Source: Solirubrobacter soli DSM 22325 (GTDB taxonomy: Bacteria; Actinomycetota; Thermoleophilia; Solirubrobacterales; Solirubrobacteraceae). From it: a stretch of DNA of 64,000 bases. A program made the translations under genes and the position numbers. The stretch is from positions 810,422 through 874,421 of the forward strand of contig NZ_AUIK01000001.1 of assembly GCF_000423665.1 (NCBI RefSeq), read 5' to 3'. Of this stretch, positions 4,060 through 30,384 are shown in pieces; within the stretch, counting starts at the first letter, position 1, and every line of letters starts with the position of its first letter. The notes beneath the pieces are model-generated. The model was not told the DNA's origin, searched no databases, and saw nothing but the letters and a program-made list of their open reading frames with translations.

Positions 4060-4125
4060 GCCCCACAGGCTTCCGTCCGGCGTGGGTCGCCGCCATGCCC
4101 GCCCACCGGACTCCGGAGTACGGCT

Positions 4126-4148
4126 GGCCGGACGTGAGCTGTCCGGCC
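4126..4148. other. Inverted repeat in a divergent intergenic region
   Basis: GGCCGGAC (4126-4133) and GTCCGGCC (4141-4148) are perfect 8-bp arms around a 7-nt loop, extendable by a wobble and a pair. It lies in the 132-bp gap between the divergent esterase and secreted-protein genes. It could be a shared operator or simply a GC-rich palindrome. Other TCCGG-containing short repeats surround it. Confidence 0.3.
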
Positions 4149-4191
4149 GGTGGTGGTGTCCGGCGCCGCGGGCGGGCGGGACGCTACGTCC

Positions 4192-5274: not shown

Positions 5275-5315
5275 GCGCAGGGCTGTCCGGTCGTCGCTGA
5301 TGGGGCAGCACGATA

Positions 5316-6653: not shown

Positions 6654-6703
6654 TGTCTGCCCATCCGCGCCGGGCGCGTATCCGGGCAGCCGGACAATGG
6701 CCG

Positions 6704-7381: not shown

Positions 7382-7409
7382 CCGCACAGGATCACCCGTG
7401 AGCCGGACG

Positions 7410-7427
7410 CGCAACTGTATGGTTGCG
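7410..7427 (+). promoter_or_regulatory. Inverted repeat in the phosphoesterase leader
   Basis: CGCAAC (7410-7415) and GTTGCG (7422-7427) flank TGTATG, ending three bases before the ATG at 7430. The repeat overlaps the expected ribosome-binding position in the 48-bp divergent gap shared with the S51 gene. It could be an operator or an mRNA hairpin; the assignment is speculative. Confidence 0.3.
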
Positions 7428-7429
7428 TC

Positions 7430-8140: not shown

Positions 8141-8149
8141 CCTTGGCGG

Positions 8150-10015
8150 ATGGCCCTCCCCGCGTCCGACCGAGACCTCTCCGCCGACCCCGGCGTCGAC
8201 TTCTACCGCTTCGCCAACGGCGGCTGGCTGGACGGGAACCCGATCCCCGCCGGATACGGCGCGTGGGGGTCGTTCGAGGAGGTCAGCCGGCGCAACGAGG
8301 TCGCGCTGCGGGAGCTGCTCGAGCGGGCCGCCGAGACACCCGGGGACCTGCTAGGGGACGCGTACGCCGCCGGGATGGACCTGGAGGCGATCGAGGCCGC
8401 CGGGACGGGGGCGATCACGGAGCTGCTGGCGGCGGCCGAGCGGGAGGACGTGGCGGCGCTGCACCGGGCGGGGATCTTCGTGCTGTTCGGGTGGGGCGTC
8501 ACCGCCGACCACGACGACACGGACCGCAACCTGCTGTGGCTGTCGCAGGCCGGGCTCGGGCTGCCGGATCGCGAGTCCTATTTCGACGAGTCGGCCGCGG
8601 AGCTGCGCGGCGCGTACGTCGAGCACATCGACGCGCAGCTGCGCAACGCGGGCGTCGCGGGCGACGGCGCCGCGGTCCTCGCGTTCGAGACGCGGCTCGC
8701 CGAGCTGCACTGGCGCGCGGAGGAACGGCGCGACACCGACCGCACCCACAACCGCTTCGAGCGCGCGGCGATCGTCGCGTTGCTCGGCGACTACCTCGAC
8801 CGGCTCGGCGCGCAGGCGGCCGCTTCCGTCAACGTCGAGAACCCGAAGCTGATCGAGGGCCTGCAGGCCGTGCTCGACGACACGCCGCCCTCGACGCGCC
8901 GCGCCTACTTCGCCTTCCACGTCGTCAAGGCCGCGGCCGACGCGCTGCCGAAGCGCTTCGACGACGAGGACTTCGCGTTCTACGGGCGTCGGATCCGCGG
9001 GCAGCAGGAGCAGCACGAGCGCGCCAAGCGGGTGATCGACGCGATCGGCTCAGACCTCGGCGAGGCGCTGGCCGAGCGCTACGTCACGACCGCGTTCTCG
9101 CCTGAGGCCAAGGAACGGGCGGAGCGGATGGTCGCGGCGATCCTCGAGGAGATGCGGAGCTCGATCCGCACCCGCGAGTGGATGAGCGCGGAGACCCGCG
9201 CCAAGGCCGAGATCAAGCTCGACGCGCTGCGGGTGAAGATCGGCTACCCGGACGAGTGGCGCGACTGGTCCGCGCTCGAGCAGCACCGCGACACCTACGC
9301 CGCCAACCGCCTCGCCGCCGCGCGGTTCGAGCTCGAGCGCCAGCTGGCCAAGCTGCCCGAGCCGGTCGACCGCGGCGAGTGGGAGATGCCCGCCCACATC
9401 GTCAACGCCTACTACCACCCGACGCTCAACGAGATCGTCTTCCCGGCGGGCATCCTGCAGCCGCCGCTGTTCGACGCCGAGGCCGACGACGCGGTCAACT
9501 TCGGCGGGATCGGCATGGTCGTCGCGCACGAGATCACGCACGGCTTCGACGATCAGGGCCGGCGCTTCGACGCCGACGGCGCCCTGCGCGAGTGGTGGAC
9601 GCCCGAGGACGCGGAGCGCTTCACGGCGCTCGCCGACCAGTTGGTCGCCCAGTTCGACGCTTACGCGATCCTCGAGGACGTCCACATCAACGGCCGCCTG
9701 ACCTTGGGCGAGAACATCGCCGACCTCGGCGGCCTCGCCCTGGCGCAGCGCGCCCACGCCCGCGTCGCCGACGGGGCGCCGGCGATCGACGGCCTCACAC
9801 CCGCGCAGCGCTTCTTCCTCGCCAACGCGACGCTGTGGCGGGCGAACATCAGCCCGGAGCTCCAGCGCACGCTCGCGGGCATCGACCCCCACAGCCCGCG
9901 CGAGCTGCGGGTGCTCGGCCCGGTCTCCAACCTCACCGCCTTCCGAGACGCCTTCGGGCTGCCCGACGACGCGCCGATCATGCGCGCCCCGGAGGAGCGC
10001 ATCGAGATCTGGTGA
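8150..10015 (+). CDS. M13-family zinc metallopeptidase (neprilysin/PepO-like)
   Basis: A 621-residue metallopeptidase. Catalytic motif HEITH is at residues 460-464 (VVAHEITHGFDDQG), and the third zinc ligand is Glu521 in ENIADLGG. NAYYHPTLNEIVFPAGILQ is the family's substrate-binding block (NAYY). The N-terminal PGVDFYRFANGGWL block is also typical. No signal peptide or membrane anchor is visible, so it is likely cytoplasmic like PepO. The C-terminus ends EERIEIW without the CxxW seen in many relatives. It probably cleaves peptides of limited length. Its stop codon lies in a shared terminator hairpin. Confidence 0.95.
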   Translation: MALPASDRDLSADPGVDFYRFANGGWLDGNPIPAGYGAWGSFEEVSRRNEVALRELLERAAETPGDLLGDAYAAGMDLEAIEAAGTGAITELLAAAEREDVAALHRAGIFVLFGWGVTADHDDTDRNLLWLSQAGLGLPDRESYFDESAAELRGAYVEHIDAQLRNAGVAGDGAAVLAFETRLAELHWRAEERRDTDRTHNRFERAAIVALLGDYLDRLGAQAAASVNVENPKLIEGLQAVLDDTPPSTRRAYFAFHVVKAAADALPKRFDDEDFAFYGRRIRGQQEQHERAKRVIDAIGSDLGEALAERYVTTAFSPEAKERAERMVAAILEEMRSSIRTREWMSAETRAKAEIKLDALRVKIGYPDEWRDWSALEQHRDTYAANRLAAARFELERQLAKLPEPVDRGEWEMPAHIVNAYYHPTLNEIVFPAGILQPPLFDAEADDAVNFGGIGMVVAHEITHGFDDQGRRFDADGALREWWTPEDAERFTALADQLVAQFDAYAILEDVHINGRLTLGENIADLGGLALAQRAHARVADGAPAIDGLTPAQRFFLANATLWRANISPELQRTLAGIDPHSPRELRVLGPVSNLTAFRDAFGLPDDAPIMRAPEERIEIW

Positions 10016-10045
10016 ACCTAAAGGGGCCTGACCCCTTTAGGTTCA
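10013..10045. terminator. Bidirectional terminator containing both stop codons
   Basis: TGAACCTAAAGGGG (10013-10026) and CCCCTTTAGGTTCA (10032-10045) form a perfect 14-bp stem with loop CCTGA. The first three bases are the M13 peptidase stop and the last three are the stop of the minus-strand zinc-ribbon gene, so the repeat is symmetric with respect to the two convergent genes. The AT-rich base of the stem can serve as an oligo-U/A tract in both directions. Confidence 0.8.
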
Positions 10046-10219
10046 GCGCGCGAAGCGCTCGAAGACCGTCGTGACGACGGGCTCGCCGCAGTCCAGGCAG
10101 GTGCGGTCGAGCAGCGAGGACGGGCGTGACAGGGAGGTCCCGCCCAGCCCGCAGGACGGGCAGTGGAACGCCGTCTCGACGAAGCCGGCGGCCTGTAGTG
10201 CTTCCGTGACGTCGGCCAT
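10043..10219 (-). CDS. 58-residue zinc-ribbon protein
   Basis: A short frame from ATG 10219 to TGA 10043. It carries two CxxC knuckles, CPSC at about residues 20-23 and CLDC at about 42-45, with about 18 residues between, which should bind one zinc. Function is unknown; such mini-ribbons can be RNA, DNA or protein binders. It ends in the shared bidirectional terminator and is convergent with the M13 gene. The MFS gene upstream on the same strand ends 9 bp before its start, so it may be the last cistron of the MFS operon. Confidence 0.7.
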   Translation of the reverse strand: MADVTEALQAAGFVETAFHCPSCGLGGTSLSRPSSLLDRTCLDCGEPVVTTVFERFAR

Positions 10220-16805: not shown

Positions 16806-17912
16806 GTGCCTGACCAGTTTGATAACCCGCGCGCGCTGCGACTGAACGACTTCGAGATCTCCGACACGAGCGACTGCTACGTGATCGCCGAGATCGGCCA
16901 CAACCATGGTGGCTCGCTCGATTCGGCGCATGAGCTGTTCGCCGAGGCGAAGGCGGCGGGGGCGCACGCGGTCAAGCTGCAGAAGCGCGACAACCGCTCG
17001 CTGTACACCAGGGAGGGCTACAACAAGCCCTACGAGAACGAGAACTCGTACGGCGCGACGTACGGCGAGCACCGCGAGTACCTCGAGTTCGGCAAGGCGG
17101 AGTACGAGGACCTGATCGCGCACTCCAAGGAGATCGGCGTCACGTTCTTCTCGACGGCCTTCGACATCCCGAGCGCGGACTTCCTCGCCGAGCTCGACAT
17201 GCCGCTGTACAAGATCGCTTCTGCGGACCTGATCAACACGCCGCTGCTCAAGCACGTGGCCAAGATCGGCAAGCCGATGATCCTGTCGACCGGCGGCGCC
17301 ACGCTGGAAGACGTCAAGCGCGGCTACAGCACGGTCGCCGAGATCAACCCGGAGGTCGCGCTGCTGCAGTGCACGGCGGGCTACCCGGCCGCGTGGGAGG
17401 AGCTCGACCTGCGCGTCATCTCCACCTACCGCGACCTGTTCCCGGACGCGGTCGTCGGCCTGTCCAGCCACGACAACGGCATCGCGATGGCGGTCGCCGC
17501 GTACGTCCTGGGCGGGCGCATCGTCGAGAAGCACTTCACGCTCAACCGCGCGCTGAAGGGCACCGACCATCGCTTCAGCCTCGAGCCGCAGGGCCTGCGC
17601 AAGCTCGTCCGCGACCTCAAGCGCACGCGTGTGGCGCTCGGCGACGGCAACAAGTCGATGTACCCGTCGGAGACCGAGCCGATCATCAAGATGGCCAAGA
17701 AGCTCGTCGCCGCGCGCCCGCTGCCCGCCGGCCACACGCTGACCGAGGCCGACATCGCGTTCAAGTCGCCCGGCGACGGCCTGCCGCCCTACGAGCTCGA
17801 CCGCGTCCTCGGCCGCACGCTCACCCACCCGGTGATGGAGGACGGCGCGCTGACCTTCGAGGTGCTCGAGCCGGCCGACGAGCAGGTCGGTTCCACCACG
17901 CACGGTGACTGA
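16806..17912 (+). CDS. NeuB-family sialic acid/ulosonic acid synthase
   Basis: A 368-residue enzyme of the N-acetylneuraminate synthase family, which condenses phosphoenolpyruvate with an aldose to give a 3-deoxy-ulosonic acid. The TIM barrel starts at AEIGHNHGGSLDSAHEL; metal-binding His222 (GLSSHDNG) and His243 (EKHFTLNR) are present, followed by KGTDHRFSLEP. A C-terminal SAF/antifreeze-like domain (about 310-368) includes the ADIAFKSPGDGLPPYEL block. GTG 16806 has a strong Shine-Dalgarno. First gene of a seven-gene operon ending in a methyltransferase. Which aldose it uses is unknown; standard Neu5Ac/legionaminate precursor genes are not nearby. Confidence 0.92.
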   Translation: MPDQFDNPRALRLNDFEISDTSDCYVIAEIGHNHGGSLDSAHELFAEAKAAGAHAVKLQKRDNRSLYTREGYNKPYENENSYGATYGEHREYLEFGKAEYEDLIAHSKEIGVTFFSTAFDIPSADFLAELDMPLYKIASADLINTPLLKHVAKIGKPMILSTGGATLEDVKRGYSTVAEINPEVALLQCTAGYPAAWEELDLRVISTYRDLFPDAVVGLSSHDNGIAMAVAAYVLGGRIVEKHFTLNRALKGTDHRFSLEPQGLRKLVRDLKRTRVALGDGNKSMYPSETEPIIKMAKKLVAARPLPAGHTLTEADIAFKSPGDGLPPYELDRVLGRTLTHPVMEDGALTFEVLEPADEQVGSTTHGD

Positions 17913-18645
17913 CCTCACCGGTCAGGTCGCCGTCGTCACGGGCCTTTCGGGGCGCCTCGGTCCCGTCTGGGCCAAGGCGCTCCGGGACGCGGGCGCGACG
18001 GTCGTCGGCGTCGACCTCAACGCCGGCGAGAACGTCTACGCGGCCGACGTGACCGACCGCGCCGGCATGGACGCCGCGCGCGAGCAGATCACCGCCGACC
18101 ACGGCGCGCCGACGATCCTCGTCAACAACGCGGGGATCGACCAGCCGCCGGGCGCGGGCGGAACCGGCTACGCGATCGAGGACGTCCCCTTGGAGGCGTT
18201 CACGAAGACCGTGGACGTCAACCTGGCCGGCACGTTCAACGCGATCCAGGTCTTCGGCCCCGCGATGGTCGCGGCCGGCCGGGGCTCGATCGTGAACATC
18301 GGCTCGTTGTACGCGAGCATCGCCCCCGAGCCGGCGTTCTACGACCACATCCCGGGTTTTCTGAAGCCCGCCGCCTACGGCGCGTCGAAGGCCGCCGTAC
18401 TGAACCTGACGCGCTACTTCGCCCGCCTCTGGGGCCCGCACGGCGTGCGCGTGAACGCGATCTCGCCCGGCGGCGTCGAGGGCGGCCAGGACGCCGAGTT
18501 CCTGGCCAAGTACACCGCGCGCGTCCCGCTCGGGCGGATGGCGCAGGAGGCCGACCTCGGCGGCCCGCTCGTCTTCCTGGCCTCCGAGGCCTCCCGGTAT
18601 GTGACCGGGCAGCACCTGCAAGTCGACGGAGGATTCACCGTATGA
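17905..18645 (+). CDS. Short-chain dehydrogenase/reductase
   Basis: A 246-residue classical SDR using NAD(P)H. The glycine motif is variant (VVTGLSGRLGPVWA), NNAG is at 74-77, and the catalytic Ser134, Tyr158 and Lys162 (YGASK) are present; the C-terminus GQHLQVDGGFTV is standard. Overlapping NeuB by 8 bp and followed by an aldehyde dehydrogenase, it probably oxidises or reduces a hydroxyl of the pathway's sugar or sugar acid. An insertion-like stretch (SIAPEPAFYDHIPGFLKP) before the Tyr resembles SDRs found in other nonulosonate loci. Confidence 0.92.
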   Translation: MTDLTGQVAVVTGLSGRLGPVWAKALRDAGATVVGVDLNAGENVYAADVTDRAGMDAAREQITADHGAPTILVNNAGIDQPPGAGGTGYAIEDVPLEAFTKTVDVNLAGTFNAIQVFGPAMVAAGRGSIVNIGSLYASIAPEPAFYDHIPGFLKPAAYGASKAAVLNLTRYFARLWGPHGVRVNAISPGGVEGGQDAEFLAKYTARVPLGRMAQEADLGGPLVFLASEASRYVTGQHLQVDGGFTV

Positions 18646-20084
18646 GCGCCCCCACGGCCGTCCGCACCATCGGCAACGTCATCGGCGGCGAGGAGCGTCC
18701 GGCCGCATCCGGCGAGACGATCCCCAAGTACGCGCCCGCGACGGGCGAGGTGCTCACCCACGTCGCGCGCTCCGGCAAGGCCGACGTCGACGCCGCGATC
18801 ACCGCCGCGCAACAGGCCCAACCCGCATGGGCGCGCGAGACCCCCGCGCAGCGCGGCGCGATCCTGCGCCGGATCGCCCAGCTGCTCGAGCGCGACGCGC
18901 AAGAGCTCGCGGAGATCGTCGCCGCCGAGACCGGCAAGTCCCCCAAGGACGCGCTCGGCGAGGTCGGCGGCGCGATCGAGATGGGCTACTTCGTGGCCGG
19001 CGAGGGCCGCCGTCTATACGGCAAGACGACCACGAGCGCCGTCCCGAACCGCCAGGCGATGATCGTGCGCCAGCCGCTCGGTGTCGCGGGCCTGATCATC
19101 GCCGCCAACACGCCGATCGCGAACGTCGCGTGGAAGGTCTTCCCCGCGCTCGTGTGCGGCAACGCGGCGGTCCTGAAGGCGAGCGAGGACACGCCCGAGA
19201 CCGCGCTGGCGTTCGCGCGGCTCGCCGCCGAGGCGGGCCTGCCCGCGGGCGTGCTGAACATCGTCCAGGGCCTCGGCCCGGAGGCCGGGCAGCCGATCGT
19301 CGAGGACCCGCGGGTGGCGATCGTCTCCTTCACCGGCTCGACCGCCGTCGGGCGGATGATCGCGCGGGTCGCCGGCGAGCGGCTAGCGAAGGTCTGCCTC
19401 GAGCTCGGCGGCAAGAACCCGTTCGTGGTCTGCGACGACGCCGACCTCGACGCCGCCGCCACCGCGGCCGCTCTGAGCGCCTACTCGAACGCGGGCCAGC
19501 GCTGCGCCGCGGGCAGCCGGATCATCGTCTTCGACGCCGTCTACGACGACTTCAAGGCGAAGCTCCTCGAGCGCACGCAGGCGCAGAAGGTCGGCCCCAC
19601 CGACGACCACGACTTCGGCCCGGTCATCAACCAGCGCCAGCTCGACAACATGCTGGCCAAGGTCCGCGAGGCCAAGGAGAACGGCGCCACGATCCTCGCG
19701 GGCGGCGAGCGCATCGGCGACGAGGGCTACTACATGGCGCCGACGCTGATCGAAGGCCGCATCGACAACGAGCTCTTCGGCCCGATCACGACGCTGCACC
19801 GCGTCTGGAGCTTCGACGAGGCCGTCGAGCTGGCCAACGACACGCCCTACGGCCTGACCGCTGCGATCTGGACCGCTTCAGTGCACCGCGGGCAGGAGTT
19901 CCTGACCCGGATCGCGAGCGGCGTCGCTTCCGTCAACGGCCCGACCTACGGGTCCGAGCCGCACATGCCGTTCGGCGGCCTCGGTGACTCGGGCACGGGC
20001 TGGCGCGAGGCGGGCACCGAGGCGATCGACGTCTACTCCGACCTCAAGACGATCTACGTCAACCACGACCCGTCCCTTGTCTAA
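18642..20084 (+). CDS. NAD(P)-dependent aldehyde dehydrogenase
   Basis: A 480-residue ALDH that oxidises an aldehyde to an acid. General-base Glu254 (LELGGKNP) and nucleophile Cys288 (NAGQRCAAGSR) are in place; cofactor-site FTGSTAVGR and the C-terminal GSEPHMPFGGLGDSGTGWREAG are intact. ATG 18642 overlaps the SDR stop (ATGA). An ALDH inside a NeuB/CMP-transferase operon is not part of known Neu5Ac, legionaminate or pseudaminate routes; it could act on a chain-cleaved or side-chain aldehyde of the sugar. Substrate inferred from context only. Confidence 0.93.
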   Translation: MSAPTAVRTIGNVIGGEERPAASGETIPKYAPATGEVLTHVARSGKADVDAAITAAQQAQPAWARETPAQRGAILRRIAQLLERDAQELAEIVAAETGKSPKDALGEVGGAIEMGYFVAGEGRRLYGKTTTSAVPNRQAMIVRQPLGVAGLIIAANTPIANVAWKVFPALVCGNAAVLKASEDTPETALAFARLAAEAGLPAGVLNIVQGLGPEAGQPIVEDPRVAIVSFTGSTAVGRMIARVAGERLAKVCLELGGKNPFVVCDDADLDAAATAAALSAYSNAGQRCAAGSRIIVFDAVYDDFKAKLLERTQAQKVGPTDDHDFGPVINQRQLDNMLAKVREAKENGATILAGGERIGDEGYYMAPTLIEGRIDNELFGPITTLHRVWSFDEAVELANDTPYGLTAAIWTASVHRGQEFLTRIASGVASVNGPTYGSEPHMPFGGLGDSGTGWREAGTEAIDVYSDLKTIYVNHDPSLV

Positions 20085-20784
20085 CGCCGTCGCCCTCGTC
20101 CCGGCGCGGGCGGGCTCCAAGCGCGTCCCTGGCAAGAACATCGCCGACCTCGCCGGCCATCCGCTGATCGCCTACTCGATCGCGGCGGCCCGCGAGTCCG
20201 GCCTGTTCACCGACGTGATCGTGTCGACCGACAGCGGGGAGATCGCGGAGGTCGCCGAGCGCTACGGCGCGACCGTGCCCGGCCTGCGCCCGACGGCGAT
20301 CGCCGGCTCGACCTCGCCGGACATCCTCTGGGTCCAGCACGCGCTCGAGGGCCGCGACGAGGCGCTGTTCTCGATCCTGCGCCCGACGAGCCCGTTTCGC
20401 ACCGCCGCGACGATCCGGCGCGCCTGGGACCAGCTGCACGCCGTCGAGGGCGCGGACTCGATCCGCGCCGTCCGCAAGGTCCGCGAGCACCCCGGGAAGA
20501 TGTGGCGGATCACCGGCGACGTGATGGTCCCGTTCATGGCCCAGACCGACGGCGAGGTGCCGACGCACTCGCGCCAGACGGCGTCGCTGCCGGAGGTCTA
20601 CGTCCAGGACTCGTCGCTGGAGATCGCCTACACGCGGATCGTGGCCGACGGCGAGATCGCCGGAAGCACCGTCGTCCCGTTCCTGACCGAGGGCTACGAG
20701 GGCCTCTCGATCGACTATCCCGACGAGCTCGACGCCGCCCGCGTCCTGGCCGCGGAGCACCCCGACCTCCTCCCAAGGATCTGA
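20077..20784 (+). CDS. CMP-ulosonic acid (acylneuraminate) cytidylyltransferase
   Basis: A 235-residue NeuA/CMP-Kdo synthetase-type enzyme that activates the sugar acid with CTP. The nucleotide motif ALVPARAGSKRVPGKNI and the TDSGEIAEVAERYGA and SILRPTSPFRTAATI blocks are diagnostic. It has no C-terminal esterase domain. TTG 20077 is the only reasonable start just before the conserved motif and overlaps the ALDH stop by 8 bp. Together with NeuB it defines a CMP-sugar pathway. Confidence 0.92.
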   Translation: MSNAVALVPARAGSKRVPGKNIADLAGHPLIAYSIAAARESGLFTDVIVSTDSGEIAEVAERYGATVPGLRPTAIAGSTSPDILWVQHALEGRDEALFSILRPTSPFRTAATIRRAWDQLHAVEGADSIRAVRKVREHPGKMWRITGDVMVPFMAQTDGEVPTHSRQTASLPEVYVQDSSLEIAYTRIVADGEIAGSTVVPFLTEGYEGLSIDYPDELDAARVLAAEHPDLLPRI

Positions 20785-22631
20785 TGGAAGCCGCCACCTT
20801 CGCCGCCAACGCGCCGATCGCGCTGACCTACGTCCCGCCGGCCGAGCTCGCCCGCATCCGCGAGACGCGGGACCCGGTCACCCGCGCGGCCGCGCTCGCC
20901 GACGCCAACCGGATCAACGCGCTCTCGAGCATCATGGAGGCCGGCTCCGGGCACATCGGCACGTCGTTCAGCGTCGCCGACATCCTCGCTTGGCTGCACC
21001 TCGAGGTGCTGACCGGCGACGACGTCTGCTTCTCCTCCAAGGGCCACGACGCACCCGCCGTCTACGCCGCGCTGGCGTCCGTCGGCAAGCTCGACTTCGA
21101 GCTGCTGCACAAGCTGCGCAAGGGCGACGGCCTGCCCGGGCACCCGGACATCCACGCCACGCCTCAGGTCTTCACCAACACGGGAAGCCTCGGCATGGGT
21201 GTCTCCAAGGCCAAGGGCTTCGCCCGCGCCGCCCGCCTCGACGGCGGCCGTCGGCGCGTCTTCGTCATCACCGGCGACGGCGAGCTGCAGGAGGGCCAGT
21301 TCTGGGAGTCGCTCAGCCAGGCCGCCAACGAGGACTTCGGCGAGATCACGGTGATCGTCGACCACAACAAGATCCAGTCCGACACGTGGGTCGAGCACGT
21401 CAACGACCTCGGTGACCTCGAGGCCAAGGGGCGCGCGTTCGGCTGGGCCGTCGCACGCTGCGACGGCAACGACATGGCGGCGCTGTCGAGCACGCTCACC
21501 GAGCTGCTGGAAGACCTCCGCCCGAAGCTGCTGATCGCCGACACGGTCAAGGGCGCGGGCGCGGAGATCTTCACGCCGCACGCGCTGGAGAAGTCCGGCA
21601 CCGCGCTCTACGCGTACCACTCGGGCGCGCCGTCGGAGGAGCTCTACGGCATCGCGATCGCCGAGTTGGTGGGCAAGCTCGCCGACACGCTCGGTCGCGA
21701 CCCCGAGCTCGAGGCCGGCGAAGCCCCGCGCCGGGTCGCCCCGCAGACGCCGCAGAAGCTGGTCGACGCGTACGGCAGCGCGCTCAAGAGCGCCGCGGAC
21801 CGCCGCGAGGACATCGTGGCGCTCGACGCCGACCTCTACCTCGACTGCGGCCTGATCCCGTTCCGCGGCGCGCATCCCGGCCGCTTCGTCGAGTGCGGCA
21901 TCGCCGAGATGGACATGGTCTCCCAGGCCGGCGCGCTGGCGCTGGGCGGCAAGCTCCCGGTCGTCCACTCCTTCGCGTGCTTCCTGACGCCGCGGGCCAA
22001 CGAGCAGATCTACAACAACGCGTCCGAGGGCACGAAGGTCATCTACGGCGGCTTCCTCGCCGGGATCGTCCCCGGCGGGCCGGGTCACTCGCACCAGTCG
22101 GTCCGCGACATCGCGCTGATGGGCAGCGTCCCCGGGATGACGTGCCTGGAGCCGTTCTCCATGTCCGAGGCGGCGCGCTGCGTCGAGTACGCGGTCGACG
22201 AGGCCACCGGCCCCGTCTACCTTCGGTTCGTCAGCGTGCCGTGGGAGCTGGGCTTCGAGCCGCCCGAGGCCGCGCCGCTGCAACGCGGCCGGGGCACCGT
22301 GCTGCGCGCCGACGGCGACGTCGTGCTGGTGACCACCGGCCCGGTGCTCGTCTCGCAGGCGTACAACGTGTCCGAGGTTGCACTGGTCGCGCTGCCGTGG
22401 CTGCGCGACGTCGACGGCGCGTGGCTGGCGGAGATCGCGGGCGGCCGGCGGGTCGTCGTGCTCGACAACCACGTGCTCAGCGGCGGCCAGGGCGACGCGG
22501 TGCGCGCCGCGCTGCCCGGTCACGCGGTCGAGGTGTTCGGCATCGACCGCGTACCCGCGGGCGGCACCAACGACGAGGTGCTCCGCGCCCACGGCCTCGA
22601 CACCCACTCCCTGCGGGAGCGCCTGCGGTGA
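20784..22631 (+). CDS. Transketolase (full-length, pathway-dedicated)
   Basis: A 615-residue thiamine-diphosphate enzyme with both halves in one chain. The N-terminal half has the TPP motif GDGELQEGQ through IVDHNKIQSD; the pyrimidine domain has VECGIAEMDMVSQAGALA, carrying the catalytic Glu; a C-terminal transketolase domain follows. It transfers two-carbon ketol units between sugars. ATG 20784 overlaps the cytidylyltransferase stop (TGATG). Its position between a CMP-sugar synthetase and a phosphatase suggests a biosynthetic role, making or extending the sugar precursor, rather than the central pentose-phosphate enzyme. It is slightly shorter than housekeeping TktA (about 660). Confidence 0.92.
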   Translation: MEAATFAANAPIALTYVPPAELARIRETRDPVTRAAALADANRINALSSIMEAGSGHIGTSFSVADILAWLHLEVLTGDDVCFSSKGHDAPAVYAALASVGKLDFELLHKLRKGDGLPGHPDIHATPQVFTNTGSLGMGVSKAKGFARAARLDGGRRRVFVITGDGELQEGQFWESLSQAANEDFGEITVIVDHNKIQSDTWVEHVNDLGDLEAKGRAFGWAVARCDGNDMAALSSTLTELLEDLRPKLLIADTVKGAGAEIFTPHALEKSGTALYAYHSGAPSEELYGIAIAELVGKLADTLGRDPELEAGEAPRRVAPQTPQKLVDAYGSALKSAADRREDIVALDADLYLDCGLIPFRGAHPGRFVECGIAEMDMVSQAGALALGGKLPVVHSFACFLTPRANEQIYNNASEGTKVIYGGFLAGIVPGGPGHSHQSVRDIALMGSVPGMTCLEPFSMSEAARCVEYAVDEATGPVYLRFVSVPWELGFEPPEAAPLQRGRGTVLRADGDVVLVTTGPVLVSQAYNVSEVALVALPWLRDVDGAWLAEIAGGRRVVVLDNHVLSGGQGDAVRAALPGHAVEVFGIDRVPAGGTNDEVLRAHGLDTHSLRERLR

Positions 22632-23320
22632 CCACGTATCTGTTCTGGGACATCGACGGCACGCTGCTCAACACCGCGCGGGCCGGCGTCTTCGCGCTCG
22701 AGGAGGCCACCGAGGAGGTCCTCGGCGAGCGGATCGACCTGACGACGATGCGGACCGCCGGGCTGACCGACGCCGAGATCGCCCGCGTGCTGGCCGAGAG
22801 CCGTGACCGGGCCGACGAGGCGACGGTCGGCGCGCTGCTGGACGCGTACGCGCGCCTGCTGCCCGACCGGCTGCCGTGGCGCCAGGGCTGGGTCTACCCG
22901 AACGTCGTCGAGATCCTCGACGCGCTCTCAGGCCGCGACGACGTCGTCAACATGCTGCTCACGGGCAACATCGCCGGCGGCGCCGAGGCCAAGCTGCGCC
23001 ACTACGGCCTCTGGGACTACTTCAGCGCCGGCGGCGCCTTCAGCGAGTACGGCTCGGACCGCCCCTCGATCGCCCGCCGCGCCGCCGAGCTGGCCGGCAA
23101 CCCGGACGGCGACCGGATGGTCGTGATCGGCGACACGCCCCACGACATCTCCTGCGGAAAGGCGATTGGCGCGCGCACGCTCGCCGTGGCCACCGGCCCT
23201 GGCTACGACCTCGAAGAGCTGGAAGCGTGCGATCCGTGGCGGGCGCTGCCCGAGCTTCCCGATCCGGCCGACTTCGAACGCCTGATCGATCCGGACCGCG
23301 CTAGCCTTCCGCCGCGATGA
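22628..23320 (+). CDS. HAD-family phosphatase
   Basis: A 230-residue haloacid dehalogenase-like hydrolase. Motif I WDIDGTLLNT has nucleophile Asp8 and acid Asp10; motif II Thr lies in LLTGNI; motif IV GDTPHDI. A helical cap lies between (about 20-90). GTG 22628 overlaps the transketolase stop. It most likely dephosphorylates the sugar-phosphate product of the NeuB step or the transketolase step, by analogy with the phosphatase step in Kdo, Kdn or sialate-9-phosphate routes. Substrate not proven. Confidence 0.9.
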   Translation: MTTYLFWDIDGTLLNTARAGVFALEEATEEVLGERIDLTTMRTAGLTDAEIARVLAESRDRADEATVGALLDAYARLLPDRLPWRQGWVYPNVVEILDALSGRDDVVNMLLTGNIAGGAEAKLRHYGLWDYFSAGGAFSEYGSDRPSIARRAAELAGNPDGDRMVVIGDTPHDISCGKAIGARTLAVATGPGYDLEELEACDPWRALPELPDPADFERLIDPDRASLPPR

Positions 23321-24372
23321 GAGACCGCCTCCGCTCACTGATGAAGGGCGGGTCGTCGCCTGCCGCCCCGTTGGATCCCGCATTGCGCAGCTTCCTCGCG
23401 CAACTGGAGGAGGCCAAGGCGCGGTCGCGCCCGAGCGTCTTCTGGCAGAAGCAGCTCGAGGACCACGTCGCGTACGACGCCGGCTCCGACGAGGACATCG
23501 CGGCCCTGACCGAGCGCGTGACCCGCGGCTACGGCTTCGAGGACCTGCCCGAGACGGTCAGCGCCCCAGCTGAGGACCCGGCCTACGTCGCGGCGTGGGA
23601 CGCCCTCAAGCGCTCGCGCTCGATCGCCAAGCAGCTGGACCCGACCCGCATGGGCATCGACAAGGCGACCTACGAGCACATGCGCGCGCTCGGGTTCCTG
23701 CAGCTGCAGGGGCTGCTCGACGACTACCTGGAGTTCATCGCGCCGCTGCAGGTGCGCTCGACGATGTCGACGGCGCGCCACTGGTACTACGCCCGTCAGG
23801 TCGACGCCTGGGCGAAGGAGACGCACGGCGACAAGGCGCTCGACGTGCTCGAGGTCGGCGCCGGCGCGGGCAACCTCGGCATCTTCCTCACGCACATGGG
23901 GCGCGTGAACTCGTACACGATCGTCGACCTCCCGCAGATGCTCGTCCACTCGGCGTTCACCGTCTGGCGGCAGCTCGACGAGCCGCAGCTGCGCTTCGAG
24001 AGCGCCCCCGAGCCGGGCACGTGGACCTTCATCTCGGACGGCCTCGCGCACGAGATCCTGACCGAGCGCTCCTTCGACCTCGTCCACAACTACAACTCGT
24101 TCATGGAGATGGATCAGAAGGCCCGCGACGGGTACCTCGACATCTTCTACCGCACCGCCCGCCCCGGCGCGCTCTTCGTGAACATCAACCGCCGTCAACC
24201 CGCCCTGCCGCAGCCGGACGGGTCGACGTTCGACAACAACCCGCTGCTGTACCCCTACCGCACGGACGACCGGATCCTGGCCTGGGAGGAAGACCGCTTC
24301 CAGACCGTGACCCGTATCAAGCTCGAGGTCCCGATCACGTTGACCGTGACACGAGCTGCCGTGATCGCTTGA
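23317..24372 (+). CDS. Putative sugar O-methyltransferase
   Basis: A 351-residue SAM-dependent methyltransferase. The SAM loop is VLEVGAGAGNLGIFL (about 183-197), then TIVDLPQML and, near the C-terminus, FVNINRRQP. The long helical N-terminus (about 1-170) matches the putative sugar O-methyltransferase family found in capsule and LPS loci. Last gene of the NeuB operon, overlapping the phosphatase stop (ATGA). It may methylate the ulosonic acid or a residue of the glycan. The 3' end overlaps the convergent GT2 gene by 38 bp. Confidence 0.8.
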   Translation: MRDRLRSLMKGGSSPAAPLDPALRSFLAQLEEAKARSRPSVFWQKQLEDHVAYDAGSDEDIAALTERVTRGYGFEDLPETVSAPAEDPAYVAAWDALKRSRSIAKQLDPTRMGIDKATYEHMRALGFLQLQGLLDDYLEFIAPLQVRSTMSTARHWYYARQVDAWAKETHGDKALDVLEVGAGAGNLGIFLTHMGRVNSYTIVDLPQMLVHSAFTVWRQLDEPQLRFESAPEPGTWTFISDGLAHEILTERSFDLVHNYNSFMEMDQKARDGYLDIFYRTARPGALFVNINRRQPALPQPDGSTFDNNPLLYPYRTDDRILAWEEDRFQTVTRIKLEVPITLTVTRAAVIA

Positions 24373-25327
24373 GCCCCGCGTAGGTGACGTCGACCGCGAC
24401 CCGCACGGGTCGCGGCGCCGCCGCCACGCTGCGGGCCCCGTGGTGCATGACGCGGTTGACGAGGAAGTTGGCCTGCCCACGGGCGAGGATCGCGCCCGTG
24501 CGGCCCGCGTAGACGGTCCACAGGCGCGCGCGCTCACCCGCCGGGCGGCCCTTCAGCGCGCCGCGCCCGAGCGCCGCGTCGGCGGCGAGCAGCGTCAGGT
24601 GCGGGAAGACCCACGGCAGCCGCGACCAGCGCGGCGCGCCGTCGGGGAAGATCGCGTCGCGCTGGCGGTCGGCGGTCACGACGTGCTCGTAGCGGCGCCG
24701 CCAGAGCGTCCGCGGGACCTGCACGAGCGAGCCCTTCATCGCCAGCTCGGCGATCAGCAGCCGGTCCGGCAGCAGCACGCGCCGGAACCGCATGCCGTCC
24801 AGCGCGTCCAGCCGGATCAGCCCGTAGACCATGTCGCCGGCCACCATCGTGCGGCTGGCGTCGCTCACGCGCGTGGAGGGCAGTGGCGCGGTGTACTCGC
24901 GGTCAGGCCACTCGAGGCGAAGCACCTCGCCGCCATCGCCGACGCGGACGTTGCGCGGGTAGGCCAGCACGGCGCCGGGGTCGCCTTCGAGCGCGTCCAC
25001 GAGCTCGGAGAGGAAGCGCGGGTGCCAGGCGTCGTGATCGGAGGCGGGCAGGAAGTAGCGGGCGTCCGGGAAGCGCCGGCGCGCGAGCTCCAGCGTCCGC
25101 ATCCAGTTGCCCACGAGCCCGAGCCGGCGCTCGTTGACCTCCACGCGGATGCGGGGGTCGCGCTCGGCGTACCCGCGCGCGACCTCGACCGTCTCGTCGG
25201 TGGAGCGGTCGTCGCAGACGACGATCGCGAAGTCCTGCAGGCGCTGGCCGAGCAGGGTCTCGAGCGCCTCCGGGAGGTGGGCGGCCTGGTTGTACGTCGG
25301 GAGGCCGACGACGACGAGCGGCGTCAC
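24335..25327 (-). CDS. GT2 glycosyltransferase
   Basis: A 330-residue inverting GT-A enzyme. VVVGLPTYNQAAHLPEALE opens the nucleotide-sugar fold, VVCDDRSTDET follows, and the metal-binding region reads PASDHDAWHP. It is a clear paralogue of the N-terminal half of the fusion protein at 30381-32228; both share the NERRLGLVGNW and DRLLxAE blocks. Start GTG 25327 overlaps the upstream methyltransferase stop (GTGA). Third gene of the left arm of the mirror-image cluster. Donor and acceptor unknown. Confidence 0.9.
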   Translation of the reverse strand: MTPLVVVGLPTYNQAAHLPEALETLLGQRLQDFAIVVCDDRSTDETVEVARGYAERDPRIRVEVNERRLGLVGNWMRTLELARRRFPDARYFLPASDHDAWHPRFLSELVDALEGDPGAVLAYPRNVRVGDGGEVLRLEWPDREYTAPLPSTRVSDASRTMVAGDMVYGLIRLDALDGMRFRRVLLPDRLLIAELAMKGSLVQVPRTLWRRRYEHVVTADRQRDAIFPDGAPRWSRLPWVFPHLTLLAADAALGRGALKGRPAGERARLWTVYAGRTGAILARGQANFLVNRVMHHGARSVAAAPRPVRVAVDVTYAGLKRSRQLVSRST

Positions 25328-26418
25328 TTGTCCACGCGCCGCCAGCCGACGACGTGCCGGTACCCGAACTCCTCCTTGCCCGGCTTGCCGAGCGTGCGGC
25401 TCGCGGCCTGGGCCAGCAGCGCGCGCACGCCGCCCGCGGGGAGCTTCGGGAGCATCTGCGTGTACTGGATGCCGGGCAGGACCGTCGTCTCCTGCGGCCA
25501 GTAGTACGGCGAGATCAGGTCGCGCACGCTGGTCATCTGCGGGTTGTACGGCGAGCGGTCGCGGTTGAGGCTGTAGAGGTACGGCGCGCCCAGCTCGTGC
25601 GCGTGGCGGACGTAGCCCGCGACCTGGTCGGCGGTCATCTCCTGGAAGGAGACGGTGTTCATCGCCAGGTCGAGCCTCGGCGGGCGCGTCTGGTCCAGGA
25701 ACGTGTTCGGGACGAAGACGAAGTCCGCGTCGGGCGGGCCGAGCGGGCCGTCCGGGTGGTCGGGGTCGAAGAAGTGCAGCTTCGCGTCCGGGAACGCGCT
25801 GGCCAGGTACGTGGCCGAGAACAGGAACAGCTCCGGCAGGTCGGTGAGGACGTACTTGACGTCCGGGAACAGCGTCTTGAAGACGTACGCCAGGCCGCCC
25901 CAGCCCGTCCCGATCTCCCACACCGTCTTGCGCTCGTCCGTCTTGCGGAGCTCGTCGAGCACCGCGCCCTTCTCGAGGGCGATCATCACCTCGAAGTACT
26001 TGAGCGTGTCGAGGTTGTAGAGCTGGCCGTCGATCTCGTGCCCGAAGCCGCCGAGCACCTCCGGCTCGGGCACGAGCAGCTCGCGGCCGCCCGCCACCTC
26101 GATCAACGCGTCGAGCTTGGCCTTTAGCTGCGCGCGCCGGTTGTCCTGGTGCGTGCGGTACTCGTAGACCTTCAGACCCGTGACGTGGTAGCTGTGATGG
26201 CGCAGGCGCTTGATCAGCAGCGGGGAGGCGTCGAACAGGTACTCGAAGCCCGCGAGCTCCTCTTCCCAGTAGTCGCTCGGCGCGGCGGTCCCGCCGCGGC
26301 GTTCGCGATCGAGCGCGCGGAAGCGCAGCACCTCCTCGCGAGCGCGTTGGTAGGCACGGAATTCACGGCTCGCGCTCAGGCGCTCGAGCTCGGCCGGCAA
26401 GTCATCGATCGCAGTCAT
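25324..26418 (-). CDS. Putative sugar O-methyltransferase
   Basis: A 364-residue protein. The SAM site is TVWEIGTGWGGLAYVF, then VLTDLPELFLFSATYLAS, and FVPNTFLDQ followed by AMNTVSFQEM. The family match is to putative sugar O-methyltransferases, as for 23317-24372 but only distantly similar. ATG 26418 overlaps the upstream stop (TGATG) and has a GGGGCGG stretch before it; ATG 26430 is an alternative. It lies between a GT-B-like gene and a GT2 gene, so it probably methylates the glycan those enzymes build or cap. Confidence 0.8.
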   Translation of the reverse strand: MTAIDDLPAELERLSASREFRAYQRAREEVLRFRALDRERRGGTAAPSDYWEEELAGFEYLFDASPLLIKRLRHHSYHVTGLKVYEYRTHQDNRRAQLKAKLDALIEVAGGRELLVPEPEVLGGFGHEIDGQLYNLDTLKYFEVMIALEKGAVLDELRKTDERKTVWEIGTGWGGLAYVFKTLFPDVKYVLTDLPELFLFSATYLASAFPDAKLHFFDPDHPDGPLGPPDADFVFVPNTFLDQTRPPRLDLAMNTVSFQEMTADQVAGYVRHAHELGAPYLYSLNRDRSPYNPQMTSVRDLISPYYWPQETTVLPGIQYTQMLPKLPAGGVRALLAQAASRTLGKPGKEEFGYRHVVGWRRVDK

Positions 26419-27911
26419 CAGCCGCCCCATGGTGGCAGGAGTCGTTTGGCAAGTCCTCGCAGACGAGTCGGGCTCGTCGCGGTCAACAGCGCGACCGAGA
26501 GCCAGATCAGCGGCGCCGCCGCGCGTGCCCTCGGACCGGGCGGCGGGGCCGGAACCGCGGACGCCGCGCGCTCGATCGCGTCGGCGACGAGCGGTGTCGC
26601 GGGCCGCTCGAGCCCGTGCGGGCGCACGAAGGAGCCGAGGAACGCGCGGCCTGCCGCGCGGGCCGCCTCGCCGTCGGCCAACGTCGCGCCGAGCATGGCC
26701 GCGTGCTCCTGCAGATCATGCGCGACCGCGACCGGCCCGCCGCCGTTGCGCGTCAGGTAGCCGAAGTGCACCGTCCCGCTCTGGGTGGCGGTGAAGTCCT
26801 CCGACTCGATCGTCAGCACGGGCCGCCCGACGATCGCGGCCTCGACCATCGCGCTCGTGTTGATCCCGACCACGGCCTCGGCGTGGTAGAGCGAGTCGTA
26901 GTAGTCCGCGCGGTCGTCCTCGTCGACCGGGTTCGCGCCCGCGCGCGGGTAGACGGCGACCGCGTCGAGGTCGGAGAGGTCCGCGTCGCGCCACGCGCTG
27001 ACGTTGTACGGGTGCGGGCGCACGAGGACGCCGACGTCGTCCAGGCCCGACCGGCGCAGCGCGGCGATCCAGCGGCGAACGAAGTCGACCTCGGCCGCCG
27101 GGGCGGAGATCGACGCCGTCGAGCCGACGAAGAGCACGAACGGCTTCTCGGCGGGCAGCCCGACGCGCGCGGCGAACGCCTCCCGCGTCCCGCTCGGGCG
27201 GCGCGCGAACCAGCGGTCGAACGGCTGCGCGCCCGTCACCTCGATCGTCTCGGGAGCGATGAAGTGCAGCTCGGTCGCCTCGTCGCGCTGCAGCTCGTTC
27301 CACACGAGCACGCGGTCCACGCGCTCGCGGATCATCCCCTTGGTCGTCAGGTGATCCCAGCTGCCGACGGCGAGCACGGCCGGGATGCCGAGCGCGTGGG
27401 CGGCCTTGACGACGTCGGTCTGGCGCGACGCGTCGGTCACCAGCGGCGTCACGACGACCACGTCGGGGCGCGCCTCGGCGACGACGCGCTCCATGCGGCG
27501 GCTGGAGGGGATCGCGTGCTCGAGCGCCAGCAGCGCCTTCAGCGCGCGTTCGACGCGCCGCGCGGGCTGCGTCGGGAGCCGCGTGAGCCCGCGCGCCACG
27601 CCGGCCAGCAGGTGCTCGAGCCGCCGCCGGAGATAGTCCGCCTGCGCGAAGCGCGGGTGCAGATAGCGCACGTAGTCCGTGGTCCGGCGCAACTCGGTCG
27701 CCACGGGCTCCCAGAAGTCGCGCCGGCCGCCGAGGGCGCCCGCGATCGTGACCCCGGCGGGCCGGTCGTCGAGCGCGCGCAGGCCCTCGGCCTGCTTGCC
27801 CGGCTCGTCGAAGCGAAGCGTGACGTGATGGCCGCGCGCGGCGAGCTCGCGGACGACGCCGTCGTAGTACCGCAGGTAGCCGGGATAGTGCATGACGAAC
27901 AGCACGTTCAT
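26418..27911 (-). CDS. GT-B-like glycosyltransferase, unclassified
   Basis: A 497-residue protein starting MNVLFVMHYPGYLRYYDGVV, a two-domain GT-B pattern. The C-terminal half has LFVGSTASIS, then RPHPYN and GINTSAMVEAAIVGRPVLTIE, resembling CDP-glycerol/KpsS-like transferases. A hydrophobic stretch near the C-terminus (PLIWLSVALLTA) and a basic tail suggest membrane attachment. It is a paralogue of the gene at 28846-30384, with the same blocks in order (KQAEGL, SWDHLTTKG, DDRADYYDSLYHA). The specific reaction is unknown. Confidence 0.75.
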   Translation of the reverse strand: MNVLFVMHYPGYLRYYDGVVRELAARGHHVTLRFDEPGKQAEGLRALDDRPAGVTIAGALGGRRDFWEPVATELRRTTDYVRYLHPRFAQADYLRRRLEHLLAGVARGLTRLPTQPARRVERALKALLALEHAIPSSRRMERVVAEARPDVVVVTPLVTDASRQTDVVKAAHALGIPAVLAVGSWDHLTTKGMIRERVDRVLVWNELQRDEATELHFIAPETIEVTGAQPFDRWFARRPSGTREAFAARVGLPAEKPFVLFVGSTASISAPAAEVDFVRRWIAALRRSGLDDVGVLVRPHPYNVSAWRDADLSDLDAVAVYPRAGANPVDEDDRADYYDSLYHAEAVVGINTSAMVEAAIVGRPVLTIESEDFTATQSGTVHFGYLTRNGGGPVAVAHDLQEHAAMLGATLADGEAARAAGRAFLGSFVRPHGLERPATPLVADAIERAASAVPAPPPGPRARAAAPLIWLSVALLTATSPTRLRGLAKRLLPPWGG

Positions 27912-27924
27912 GGCGACCCCGGGC

Positions 27925-28803
27925 TCAGAGCGAGTCGACCGCGACGGCCTCGGCGCGGCCGAAGTACCAGAGGCCGGAGGCCCCGACGCCGACGATCAAC
28001 ACACCCACCCACGCGAGGCCCCAGGCGCTCACGATCCCCGCGTCGAAGAGCCCCCAGCGGAACAGCTCGACGACCGGTGTCATCGGGTTCACCGTCGCCA
28101 GCGGGCGCCAGGTCTCGGGAATCGCGCTGAGCGGATAGATGACGGGCGTGATGAACATCCAGAAGCCGAGGCCGTATGTGAGGCCATAACGGATGTCGCG
28201 CGCGTTCGCTCCGAGGATCGACGTCCAGATCCCGAACGTGAGCGCGAGCGCGGCGGACAGGCCCAGCGCGGCGACCGCGGCCAGCAGCTGCGCGCTCAGC
28301 TCGATGTGGATGGGGTCGCTGAAGATCGCGTACCCCACGAGCGCGAGTACGAGCAGCACGAGGTAGACGCTCAGCTCCCACAACGCGGGAGCGAAGCTCG
28401 CGATCGGGATCAGGAGGCGCGGGAGGTAGATCTTCGTCAACAGCCGGCGGTTGATCTCCAGGCTGCGGGTGCACCAGATCAAGCCGCTGTCGAACAGCTT
28501 CCAGGCGGCGGTGCCGGCGAGGAAGAAGACGGGGTACGGGATGCCGTCCGACGGCGCATTGAGCAGCGCGCCGAACACGAGCGCGCGCGACGCGACGTCC
28601 ATCAGCGGGCGCAGGAGCAGCCAGACCCGGCCGAGCACGGTGCGGGCGGCGAGCTTGTCGATCGCGCGGTCGCCGAAGAAGCCCATCAGGCCGCGGTAGC
28701 GGACGAGCTCGCGGAGGCGCTCACCGACCCCGGCGCGGCGCGGCTCGATCACGTGCACTTCGTCATGCGCCCCCGTCGGGGACGTGCTGAGGCCGCTTGC
28801 CAT
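27925..28803 (-). CDS. wzm: ABC-2 polysaccharide export permease (Wzm-like)
   Basis: A 292-residue membrane protein with about six hydrophobic segments and the ABC-2 layout: an amphipathic N-terminus, then LGRVWLLLRPLMDVASRALVFGALL, and a late TPVIYPLSAIP loop typical of O-antigen/teichoic-acid exporters. It should form the channel with the Wzt ATPase encoded at 32225-33472. It is the centre of a mirror-image cluster: minus-strand GT-B-like, methyltransferase and GT2 genes follow it, and related plus-strand genes start 42 bp away. Divergent transcription with 28846. Confidence 0.9.
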   Translation of the reverse strand: MASGLSTSPTGAHDEVHVIEPRRAGVGERLRELVRYRGLMGFFGDRAIDKLAARTVLGRVWLLLRPLMDVASRALVFGALLNAPSDGIPYPVFFLAGTAAWKLFDSGLIWCTRSLEINRRLLTKIYLPRLLIPIASFAPALWELSVYLVLLVLALVGYAIFSDPIHIELSAQLLAAVAALGLSAALALTFGIWTSILGANARDIRYGLTYGLGFWMFITPVIYPLSAIPETWRPLATVNPMTPVVELFRWGLFDAGIVSAWGLAWVGVLIVGVGASGLWYFGRAEAVAVDSL

Positions 28804-28845: not shown

Positions 28846-30384
28846 GTGCGCGTCCTCTTCGCCATGCAATATCCCGGCTATCTCCGGTATTACGACTCGA
28901 CCGTCAAGCAGCTCACCGAACGCGGTCATGAAGTCCTGATCGTCTTCGACACCCCGCACAAGCAGGCCGAGGGGCTCGAGGCGCTGGAGGGCGTGGACGG
29001 CGTCATCAATCTCGGCACGCTGCCGCGCCGGGCCGACATGTGGGAGCACTTCGCCGCCAACCTGCGCGGCACGCTCGACTATGTGCGCTACCTGCTCCCG
29101 GAGTACGAGCAGGCGCAGTACCTGCGCCGCCGCTGGGAGCGGTTCGTGCCGCCTTCGATGAGCTGGCTCACGCGCCTGGATTCGCTGCCCGTCTGGCAGG
29201 TCCGCGCGGCGCACCGCGTGCTGCTGGCGTTCGAGCGCGCGATTCCCTCCAGCCAGCGCTTCGAGGGCTTCCTGCAGGCGCTCCAGCCCGACCTCGTGAT
29301 CTGCACGCCGCTGCTGACGACATTCGGGCAGACCGATCTGATCAAGAGCGCCGGCGTGTTGGGGATCCGCACGATGATGGGCGTCGCGAGCTGGGACCAC
29401 CTGACGACCAAGGGCGTCATCCGCGCCGATCCGCAGCGGCTGCTCGTCTGGAACGAGCGCCAGCTCGAGGAAGCGCAGCGCTACCACCGGATCCCGCCCG
29501 AGCGCGTGGTCGTCACCGGCGCGCAGAACTTCGACAAGTGGTTCGCGCGCACGCCCTCGCGCGACCGCGCGGCGTTCGCCGAGCGCGTCGGCCTGCCCGG
29601 CGACAAGCCGTTCGTGCTGTTCACGGGGTCGACGGCGTCGATCTCCGAGCCCGATGCCGAGCTGCAGTTCGTCCGGCGCTGGATCGAGACGCTGCGCGCC
29701 TCGGAGGACCCGCACGTGCGCGACCTGGCCGTGCTCATGCGCCCGCACCCGTACAACTCAGCCCACTGGGCCGAGGCGGACTTCGGCGACGTCGACGGCT
29801 TCGCCGTCTGGCCGCGCAACGGGGCGAACCCGGTCAACGAGGACGATCGCGCCGACTACTACGACTCGCTGTACCACGCCGACGTCGTGGTCGGCGTGAA
29901 CACGAGCGCGATGATCGAGGCCGCGATCGCGCGTACGCCCGTGCTCACCGTCCGCGACGAGCACTTCGCCGAGACCCAGGACGGCACGTTGCACTTCCGC
30001 TACCTGCTGCTCGAGAACGGCGGCTTCGCGCGGTCGGCGCAGACGCTGCAGGAGCACACGGGGCAACTCGCCGACGTGCTCGCCGAGCCCGAGCGCATGC
30101 AGGTGGCGATCGAGAGCTTCCTCGGCTCGTTCGTGCGCCCGCACGGTCTCGACCAGGACGCGACCCCGCTGGTCACCGACGCGATCGAGAAGCTCGCCGC
30201 GCGCGGACGCACCAAGCGCCTCGTCCCGCCGGTCTGGAACCTCCCTCTGCAGGCGGTCATGTGGCCGGCGGCGTGCTGGCTGCGGCTGCGCTACGAGGCC
30301 ATGAAGGTCGTGCACGTCGGCCGGGCGGTCAAGCGCACGACCAAGGCCCGGCTGGCCCGCCACGACGCCGAGGCGCACGGTTGA
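28846..30384 (+). CDS. GT-B-like glycosyltransferase, unclassified (paralogue)
   Basis: A 512-residue paralogue of 26418-27911, opening VRVLFAMQYPGYLRYYDSTV and sharing FTGSTASIS, MRPHPYN, GVNTSAMIEAAIARTPVLTV and FLGSFVRPHGL blocks. The tail (PLQAVMWPAACWLRLRYEAMKVV) is hydrophobic then basic, again suggesting membrane association. GTG 28846 fits the paralogue's N-terminus. First gene of the right arm; its TGA overlaps the next TTG start. It likely elongates or caps the glycan exported by the adjacent ABC system. Confidence 0.75.
   Translation: MRVLFAMQYPGYLRYYDSTVKQLTERGHEVLIVFDTPHKQAEGLEALEGVDGVINLGTLPRRADMWEHFAANLRGTLDYVRYLLPEYEQAQYLRRRWERFVPPSMSWLTRLDSLPVWQVRAAHRVLLAFERAIPSSQRFEGFLQALQPDLVICTPLLTTFGQTDLIKSAGVLGIRTMMGVASWDHLTTKGVIRADPQRLLVWNERQLEEAQRYHRIPPERVVVTGAQNFDKWFARTPSRDRAAFAERVGLPGDKPFVLFTGSTASISEPDAELQFVRRWIETLRASEDPHVRDLAVLMRPHPYNSAHWAEADFGDVDGFAVWPRNGANPVNEDDRADYYDSLYHADVVVGVNTSAMIEAAIARTPVLTVRDEHFAETQDGTLHFRYLLLENGGFARSAQTLQEHTGQLADVLAEPERMQVAIESFLGSFVRPHGLDQDATPLVTDAIEKLAARGRTKRLVPPVWNLPLQAVMWPAACWLRLRYEAMKVVHVGRAVKRTTKARLARHDAEAHG

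Follow-up and report, generated by a model that had tools for sequence, protein, structure and literature searches.

The described systems nearest to the genes treated here are the routes to CMP-activated ulosonic acids. The Kdn pathway consists of a NeuB-type synthase, a HAD phosphatase and a cytidylyltransferase and has no amino-sugar genes, while the sialic, legionaminic and pseudaminic acid pathways combine NeuB and CMP-transferase homologs with amino-sugar genes. We have analysed an operon of Solirubrobacter soli DSM 22325 that contains the gene types of the Kdn pathway, but adds a conserved short-chain dehydrogenase/reductase (SDR), an aldehyde dehydrogenase (ALDH) and an altered transketolase (TK), and has a phosphatase of another HAD type. 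With the sialic, legionaminic and pseudaminic acid pathways it shares the NeuB and CMP-transferase homologs, whereas the curated cut-offs for these pathways are missed. The operon lies in a stretch of 64,000 nucleotides, called the window below, which covers positions 810422-874421 of contig C1 of the 9.3 Mb genome. We find it very probable that the operon encodes a dedicated and conserved CMP-ulosonate pathway. Its product is probably an ulosonic acid, activated with CMP and destined for a surface glycan, whose side chain has been remodelled and probably oxidised.

The operon and its conservation

Six genes on the forward strand (16806-23320) are chained by overlaps of 8, 4, 8, 1 and 4 bp, and the coupling by 1-8 bp described in a first-pass annotation of the window was thus verified. 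The genes encode a NeuB-type ulosonate synthase with a SAF domain (16806-17912, GTG start; PF03102, PF08666), an NAD-type SDR with Asp after beta-2 (17905-18645; PF13561/PF00106, best NCBIfam match PRK08213), an ALDH nearest to 2,5-dioxovalerate dehydrogenase (18642-20084; PF00171, E 6e-150), a CMP-sugar-acid cytidylyltransferase (CMPT; 20077-20784, TTG start; PF02348, with NeuA/KdsB structures as PDB matches), a TK-family ketol transferase without the sugar-phosphate pocket (20784-22631, ATG start; PF00456, PF02779) and a HAD phosphatase (22628-23320; PF12710/PF13419, PDB 2hcf), which is one of two alternative phosphatase types found in this cluster. A GTG open reading frame from 20502 was rejected as the TK gene, which starts at ATG 20784. 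A seventh gene also overlaps and shares 4 bp with the HAD gene; it encodes a putative NanM-type sugar O-methyltransferase (23317-24372, forward strand; TIGR04371, 50.8 bits, cut-off 44). PADLOC gave no match.

All six operon genes are placed by Pfam (NeuB with SAF, adh_short, Aldedh, CTP_transf_3, Transketolase_N/pyr and HAD), and none is claimed by a curated equivalog. The NeuB scores 251.7 bits against PF03102 (gathering 22.1, E 8.7e-75) and 40.6 bits against SAF (gathering 21), and falls under the equivalog cut-offs of NeuB_NnaB (TIGR03569, 290.1 versus 399.65 bits) and PseI (TIGR03586, 236.7 versus 340.25 bits). The CMPT misses the PseF cut-off (121 versus 205.7 bits) and likewise that of KdsB, the TK that of the transketolase equivalog NF004559 (312 versus 488 bits) and the ALDH that of DioxValDhHalo (406.7 versus 750 bits). 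The closest ALDH family is that of the 2-keto-acid semialdehyde dehydrogenases; the catalytic Cys and Glu of the ALDH can be read in the motifs GQRC and KASEDTP, respectively. In the SDR, the NAD-type residue D37 and the Ser/Tyr/Lys set are invariant in an alignment of nine divergent members.

A genome-neighbourhood search, which the first-pass annotation had proposed as a check, showed that the set recurs. The scan of a genome collection by NeuB alignment gave 80 loci with 61-72% identity to the window NeuB. These span about a dozen phyla, and most of them have SDR, ALDH, CMPT and TK adjoining. Phylum names were taken from record titles, where single titles of metagenome-assembled genomes may be wrong; they include Actinomycetota, Acidobacteria, Chloroflexi, Cyanobacteria (Moorena bouillonii, Gomphosphaeria), Desulfobacterales, Alpha- and Gammaproteobacteria, Planctomycetes, Verrucomicrobia (Pedosphaera), Spirochaetes, Calditrichota, Nitrospinota and others. 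Gene content was counted for the 53 loci whose downstream sequence reaches 8.5 kb or more. The combination of SDR, ALDH, CMPT and TK was found with a KdsC-type phosphatase in 14 of them and with the window HAD type in 13. In a phylogenetic tree, the window NeuB belongs to a supported clade (99/97) together with other cluster NeuBs. E. coli K1 NeuB (34% identity) falls outside, as do the second NeuBs that these genomes encode. That the same genes accompany one NeuB clade in about a dozen phyla is far more than chance would give.

The set was also approached from the TK. A search of 299 genomes of the host's class gave a match in 23 genomes. Matches of at least 45% identity whose surroundings were available stand mostly with CMPT and ALDH and usually with SDR, and the NeuB of these genomes (55-72% identity) is encoded nearby or elsewhere. 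Where a gene seems to be lacking from a locus, it is often encoded close by or at another place in the genome. The full set of Svornostia abyssi, for example, is split over about 20 kb, NeuB-TK being followed some 17 kb on by SDR-ALDH-CMPT-HAD. A check of 13 whole genomes or records, most of which had been picked because TK does not adjoin NeuB, found TK in 11.

No account of this pathway was found in the open-access literature, a coverage that leaves most subscription journals outside. The earlier suggestion of a possible new pathway is supported; it would be a dedicated, apparently undescribed CMP-ulosonate pathway with no amino-sugar genes in the operon.

A version of the module is carried by phages. 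Five distinct IMG/VR contigs contain NeuB-SDR-CMPT-TK: L159 (module at 3971-8698), L175 (2555-9071), L168/L169 (3213-8829 on L169), L146/L147 (48-5128 on L147) and L151 (2087-6482). On L159, L169 and L175 the module sits between the genes for the large terminase and the portal and is followed by a FkbM methyltransferase. PHROG matches were obtained for terminase and portal on L159 and L175, as well as for head protease and major head protein on L159, and the phage contigs are of the HK97 type. The phage contigs were found by NeuB alignment, whereas a single-protein TK scan of viral contigs gave no match. Within the phage set, KdsC occurs only on L152, a relative without TK. It is possible that the phage module serves a sugar of the virion or of the host surface.

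In Streptomyces sp. NBC_01237, NeuB-SDR-TK-HAD is found on a plasmid (L030 13105-20419) within a nonribosomal peptide synthetase (NRPS) cluster, which also has hydroxymandelate synthase/oxidase-like and lysine 6-transaminase genes. Given this location, a natural product may draw on the same chemistry. An aldehyde aminotransferase in place of the ALDH was considered for this strain and dropped, since the class III enzyme is a lysine 6-transaminase (569 bits, cut-off 520.8) and a member of the NRPS cluster.

Phosphatase, transketolase and the proposed route

Two types of phosphatase alternate in the cluster. Among the 53 loci, a KdsC-type HAD is present in 19, usually adjoining NeuB, and the window type follows TK in 13; no locus has both. 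The solved structures closest to the KdsC type belong to the KDO-8-P/KDN-9-P class and include Bacteroides 3e81/3e8m, a KDN-9-P phosphatase. Two unrelated enzymes in one slot point to a required dephosphorylation, so NeuB probably uses a phosphorylated aldose and yields a phosphorylated product, as in the Kdn route.

The cluster TKs share with the TK of the pentose phosphate pathway the family and the catalytic residues that act with thiamine pyrophosphate (TPP). We aligned 67 of them, a few genomes being counted twice, to E. coli TktA, whose numbering is used here. The TPP and catalytic residues H26, H66, H100, D155, N185, E411, F434 and H473 are kept in all 67. Unlike in the pentose phosphate enzyme, the sugar-phosphate pocket is lost in every sequence: R358 is mostly V, A, I or S, S385 is always D, H461 is G, L or C, and R520 is I or S. 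Structural work on the E. coli, yeast and human TKs has these four residues holding the phosphate of donor and acceptor. D469, which controls stereochemistry by reading the hydroxyl next to the aldehyde, is replaced by A or G, and the original residue is kept in none of the 67. An alignment to human TKT made with phmmer gives the same picture, and the separate housekeeping TK of the host retains all these residues, as does TktA. Newly invariant residues, among them D354, R441 and D442, stand by the catalytic His of the cluster TKs. The complete phage TKs are 420-443 amino acids long and are without the C-terminal domain; they keep the catalytic residues and have likewise lost the phosphate-binding ones.

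The loss of phosphate-binding residues throughout, together with a phosphatase in the cluster, argues for a TK that acts after the phosphatase and not before NeuB. Judged by these residues, it is fairly probable that the substrate would be a non-phosphorylated ulosonate. When the C6 oxygen is part of a pyranose ring there is no hydroxyl for D469 to read, so its loss is consistent with such a substrate, and is not proof of it.

Structural relatives of the SDR in the PDB are 6uh2, 8wwf, 6le3 and 1vl8. Among structures of named function, the closest are gluconate 5-dehydrogenase and the (R)-2,3-dihydroxypropane-1-sulfonate (DHPS) dehydrogenase HpsO, both of which oxidise an alcohol beside a terminal CH2OH. 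A corresponding oxidation at C8 of a nonulosonate would give the donor end that TK needs.

From this we propose a route of six steps. NeuB would condense phosphoenolpyruvate with a phosphorylated aldose, for which a hexose 6-phosphate is the most likely candidate. This would yield a nonulosonate 9-phosphate, from which the HAD phosphatase (KdsC type in other species) would strip the phosphate. The SDR with NAD would then oxidise the C8 secondary alcohol by the terminal CH2OH, giving a terminal hydroxyketone (HOCH2-CO-CHOH-). TK would take this ketol end as donor, cleave C7-C8 and remove a ketol unit of two carbons. The aldehyde now present at C7 would be converted by ALDH to a carboxylate, so that 3-deoxy-hept-2-ulosaric acid is formed. 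CMPT would activate the product, possibly before steps three to five, for use by GT-B transferases and O-methyltransferases. Here we infer the acceptor sugar, the order of steps three to six, the direction of TK and the product of the route. The complete scheme is tentative. Doubtful is the wider picture in which TK, after ketol formation by the SDR, shortens a nonulosonate to a CMP-heptulosaric acid in many phyla and phages carry the core of this route in order to place the sugar on virions or on host surfaces.

The carbon skeleton of the proposed acid is that of Dha in plant rhamnogalacturonan II (RG-II), in a comparison of which stereochemistry is no part. The enzymes and the nucleotide form of Dha are listed as unknown in a 2025 review of RG-II (PMC12168206).

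Near CMPT and TK, L048 (15312-16595 and 17908-18864) and some twelve related Thermoleophilia loci encode a PanE-like reductase together with a sugar-acid dehydratase of the enolase superfamily. This pair may deoxygenate the sugar acid further, and its presence in some clusters fits a carboxylate at the tail.

Objections and alternative explanations

Several observations weigh against the proposed route. The parts assigned to the SDR and to the candidate GT-B transferases described below draw on distant similarity, and the roles of the TK residues are carried over from the E. coli, yeast and human enzymes. Neither phosphatase is present in 21 of the 53 loci, which limits the argument from their exchange. 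Nine Anaerolineales loci are without SDR and phosphatase. That these bacteria have simply placed the same two genes at a second locus was considered and did not hold: the NeuB there is a different one (38% identity), accompanied by a CMPT-KdsC fusion and an SDR at 38-39%, and the locus may thus belong to another pathway or sugar. At two such loci, L229 (7270-10212) and L230 (7913-10972), this NeuB is without the SAF domain. Finally, no ALDH turned up in four genomes that have NeuB, SDR, CMPT and mostly TK (G310, G311, G312 and G315), in the Streptomyces plasmid record or in the phage modules, so the carboxylate cannot be universal.

In a first alternative, the CMP-nonulosonate would keep its full length. 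SDR and ALDH would oxidise the C9 alcohol to a carboxylate and give a nonulosaric acid, and TK would have a separate task, for instance placing a two-carbon branch on a keto-ulosonate. Such a division of labour draws on the stepwise oxidation of alcohols by pairs of SDR and ALDH, on the branched sugars formed by TPP enzymes in other pathways and on the fact that TK and ALDH do not always co-occur. Yet relatives of the SDR oxidise secondary alcohols, and in phages, Rhodospirillaceae, Desulfobacterales and Streptomyces SDR and TK stay paired although ALDH is missing, which argues for a link between these two enzymes. We regard the full-length product as unlikely. The first-pass suggestion that SDR and ALDH oxidise the side chain is plausible.

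The operon could also hold two pathways, with NeuB, phosphatase and CMPT making a Kdn-like CMP sugar and SDR, ALDH and TK making another acidic sugar of the same glycan. Surface-glycan loci often encode several sugars, and some clusters are without ALDH and SDR. A second sugar does not agree well with CMPT being more widely conserved with SDR, ALDH and TK than any other nucleotidyltransferase, nor with the joint travel of TK, SDR and NeuB in phages, the plasmid-borne Streptomyces cluster and many phyla, and we consider two pathways distinctly unlikely.

In the first-pass annotation TK had been placed ahead of NeuB, as the enzyme that makes the aldose or shortens it. No genes of the set are kept together more often than TK and NeuB, and ordinary TKs make aldose phosphates. 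This order is nevertheless very unlikely, as the phosphate-binding residues are gone in all 67 TKs and the phosphatase implies that the NeuB product is phosphorylated; action of TK after the phosphatase is preferred.

The same annotation had found the amino-sugar genes to be absent from the window. By tblastn (E 1e-3), no DegT aminotransferase, GNAT acetyltransferase or hydrolysing epimerase (queried with part of E. coli NeuC) was found there; this part of the claim stands, and UDP-sugar dehydratases were not scanned for. Elsewhere in the genome such genes do exist, which, with a co-conserved pattern, had been named as evidence against a new pathway: a DegT aminotransferase and a GNAT protein are encoded near the second NeuB of contig C22 (34% identity) and an Epimerase_2 protein on contig C21. 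These genes accompany that other NeuB, their occurrence does not follow that of the TK cluster, and the C22 locus is a separate amino-nonulosonate locus of the same genome. In it (L050, G000:C22:86000-105900) the second NeuB stands with GNAT and HAD genes at 5869-10151, DegT being 14 kb away. An ordinary legionaminic, pseudaminic or sialic acid pathway completed by those distant genes would account for the NeuB and CMPT homologs, but we give it hardly any credence, as NeuB and CMPT score under the NeuB_NnaB, PseI and PseF cut-offs, the C22 genes go with the other NeuB, and TK and ALDH have no use in those pathways.

Surface-glycan setting and implications

The genes around the operon indicate a surface-glycan locus. 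They encode a family 2 glycosyltransferase (24335-25321, reverse strand; PF00535, E 5.4e-23), a second NanM-type sugar O-methyltransferase (25324-26430, reverse; TIGR04371, 90 bits, cut-off 44), a GT-B protein that is a candidate ulosonyl (CMP-dependent) transferase (26418-27911, reverse; weak PF02350, structure model with pLDDT 86), an ABC-2 polysaccharide exporter permease (27925-28803, reverse; PF01061) and a second GT-B protein of the same family (28846-30384, forward; weak PF02350, 55% identical to the first by alignment). The family recurs beside many related clusters.

We also considered the two GT-B proteins as hydrolysing epimerases. The fold fits, and the model of the first gives Z 24.5 to UDP-GlcNAc 2-epimerases and 20-22 to GT-B transferases. 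The match of this protein to Epimerase_2 (PF02350) is however far under the gathering score (17.4 versus 30.6 bits), and by eye both window proteins bear the motifs RPHP and NTSAMxEAAI. With score and motifs taken together, a role as transferases is tentatively favoured.

A protein of 571 amino acids is encoded at 25 loci (e.g. L081 9609-11324), at many of them after TK or HAD. It has no match in Pfam or NCBIfam and is a candidate for a further ulosonyltransferase family.

If the proposed pathway is true, an entire class of bacterial surface sugars has gone unnoticed, since standard assays for sialic acid and predictions from NeuB would label such a sugar as sialic acid or as nothing. We know of no earlier case of a TK tailoring a CMP-ulosonate sugar. 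The phage modules suggest a use of this sugar by phages as well. The pathway would also, if true, allow the still unsolved biosynthesis of the plant pectin sugar Dha to be modelled in bacteria (PMC12168206).

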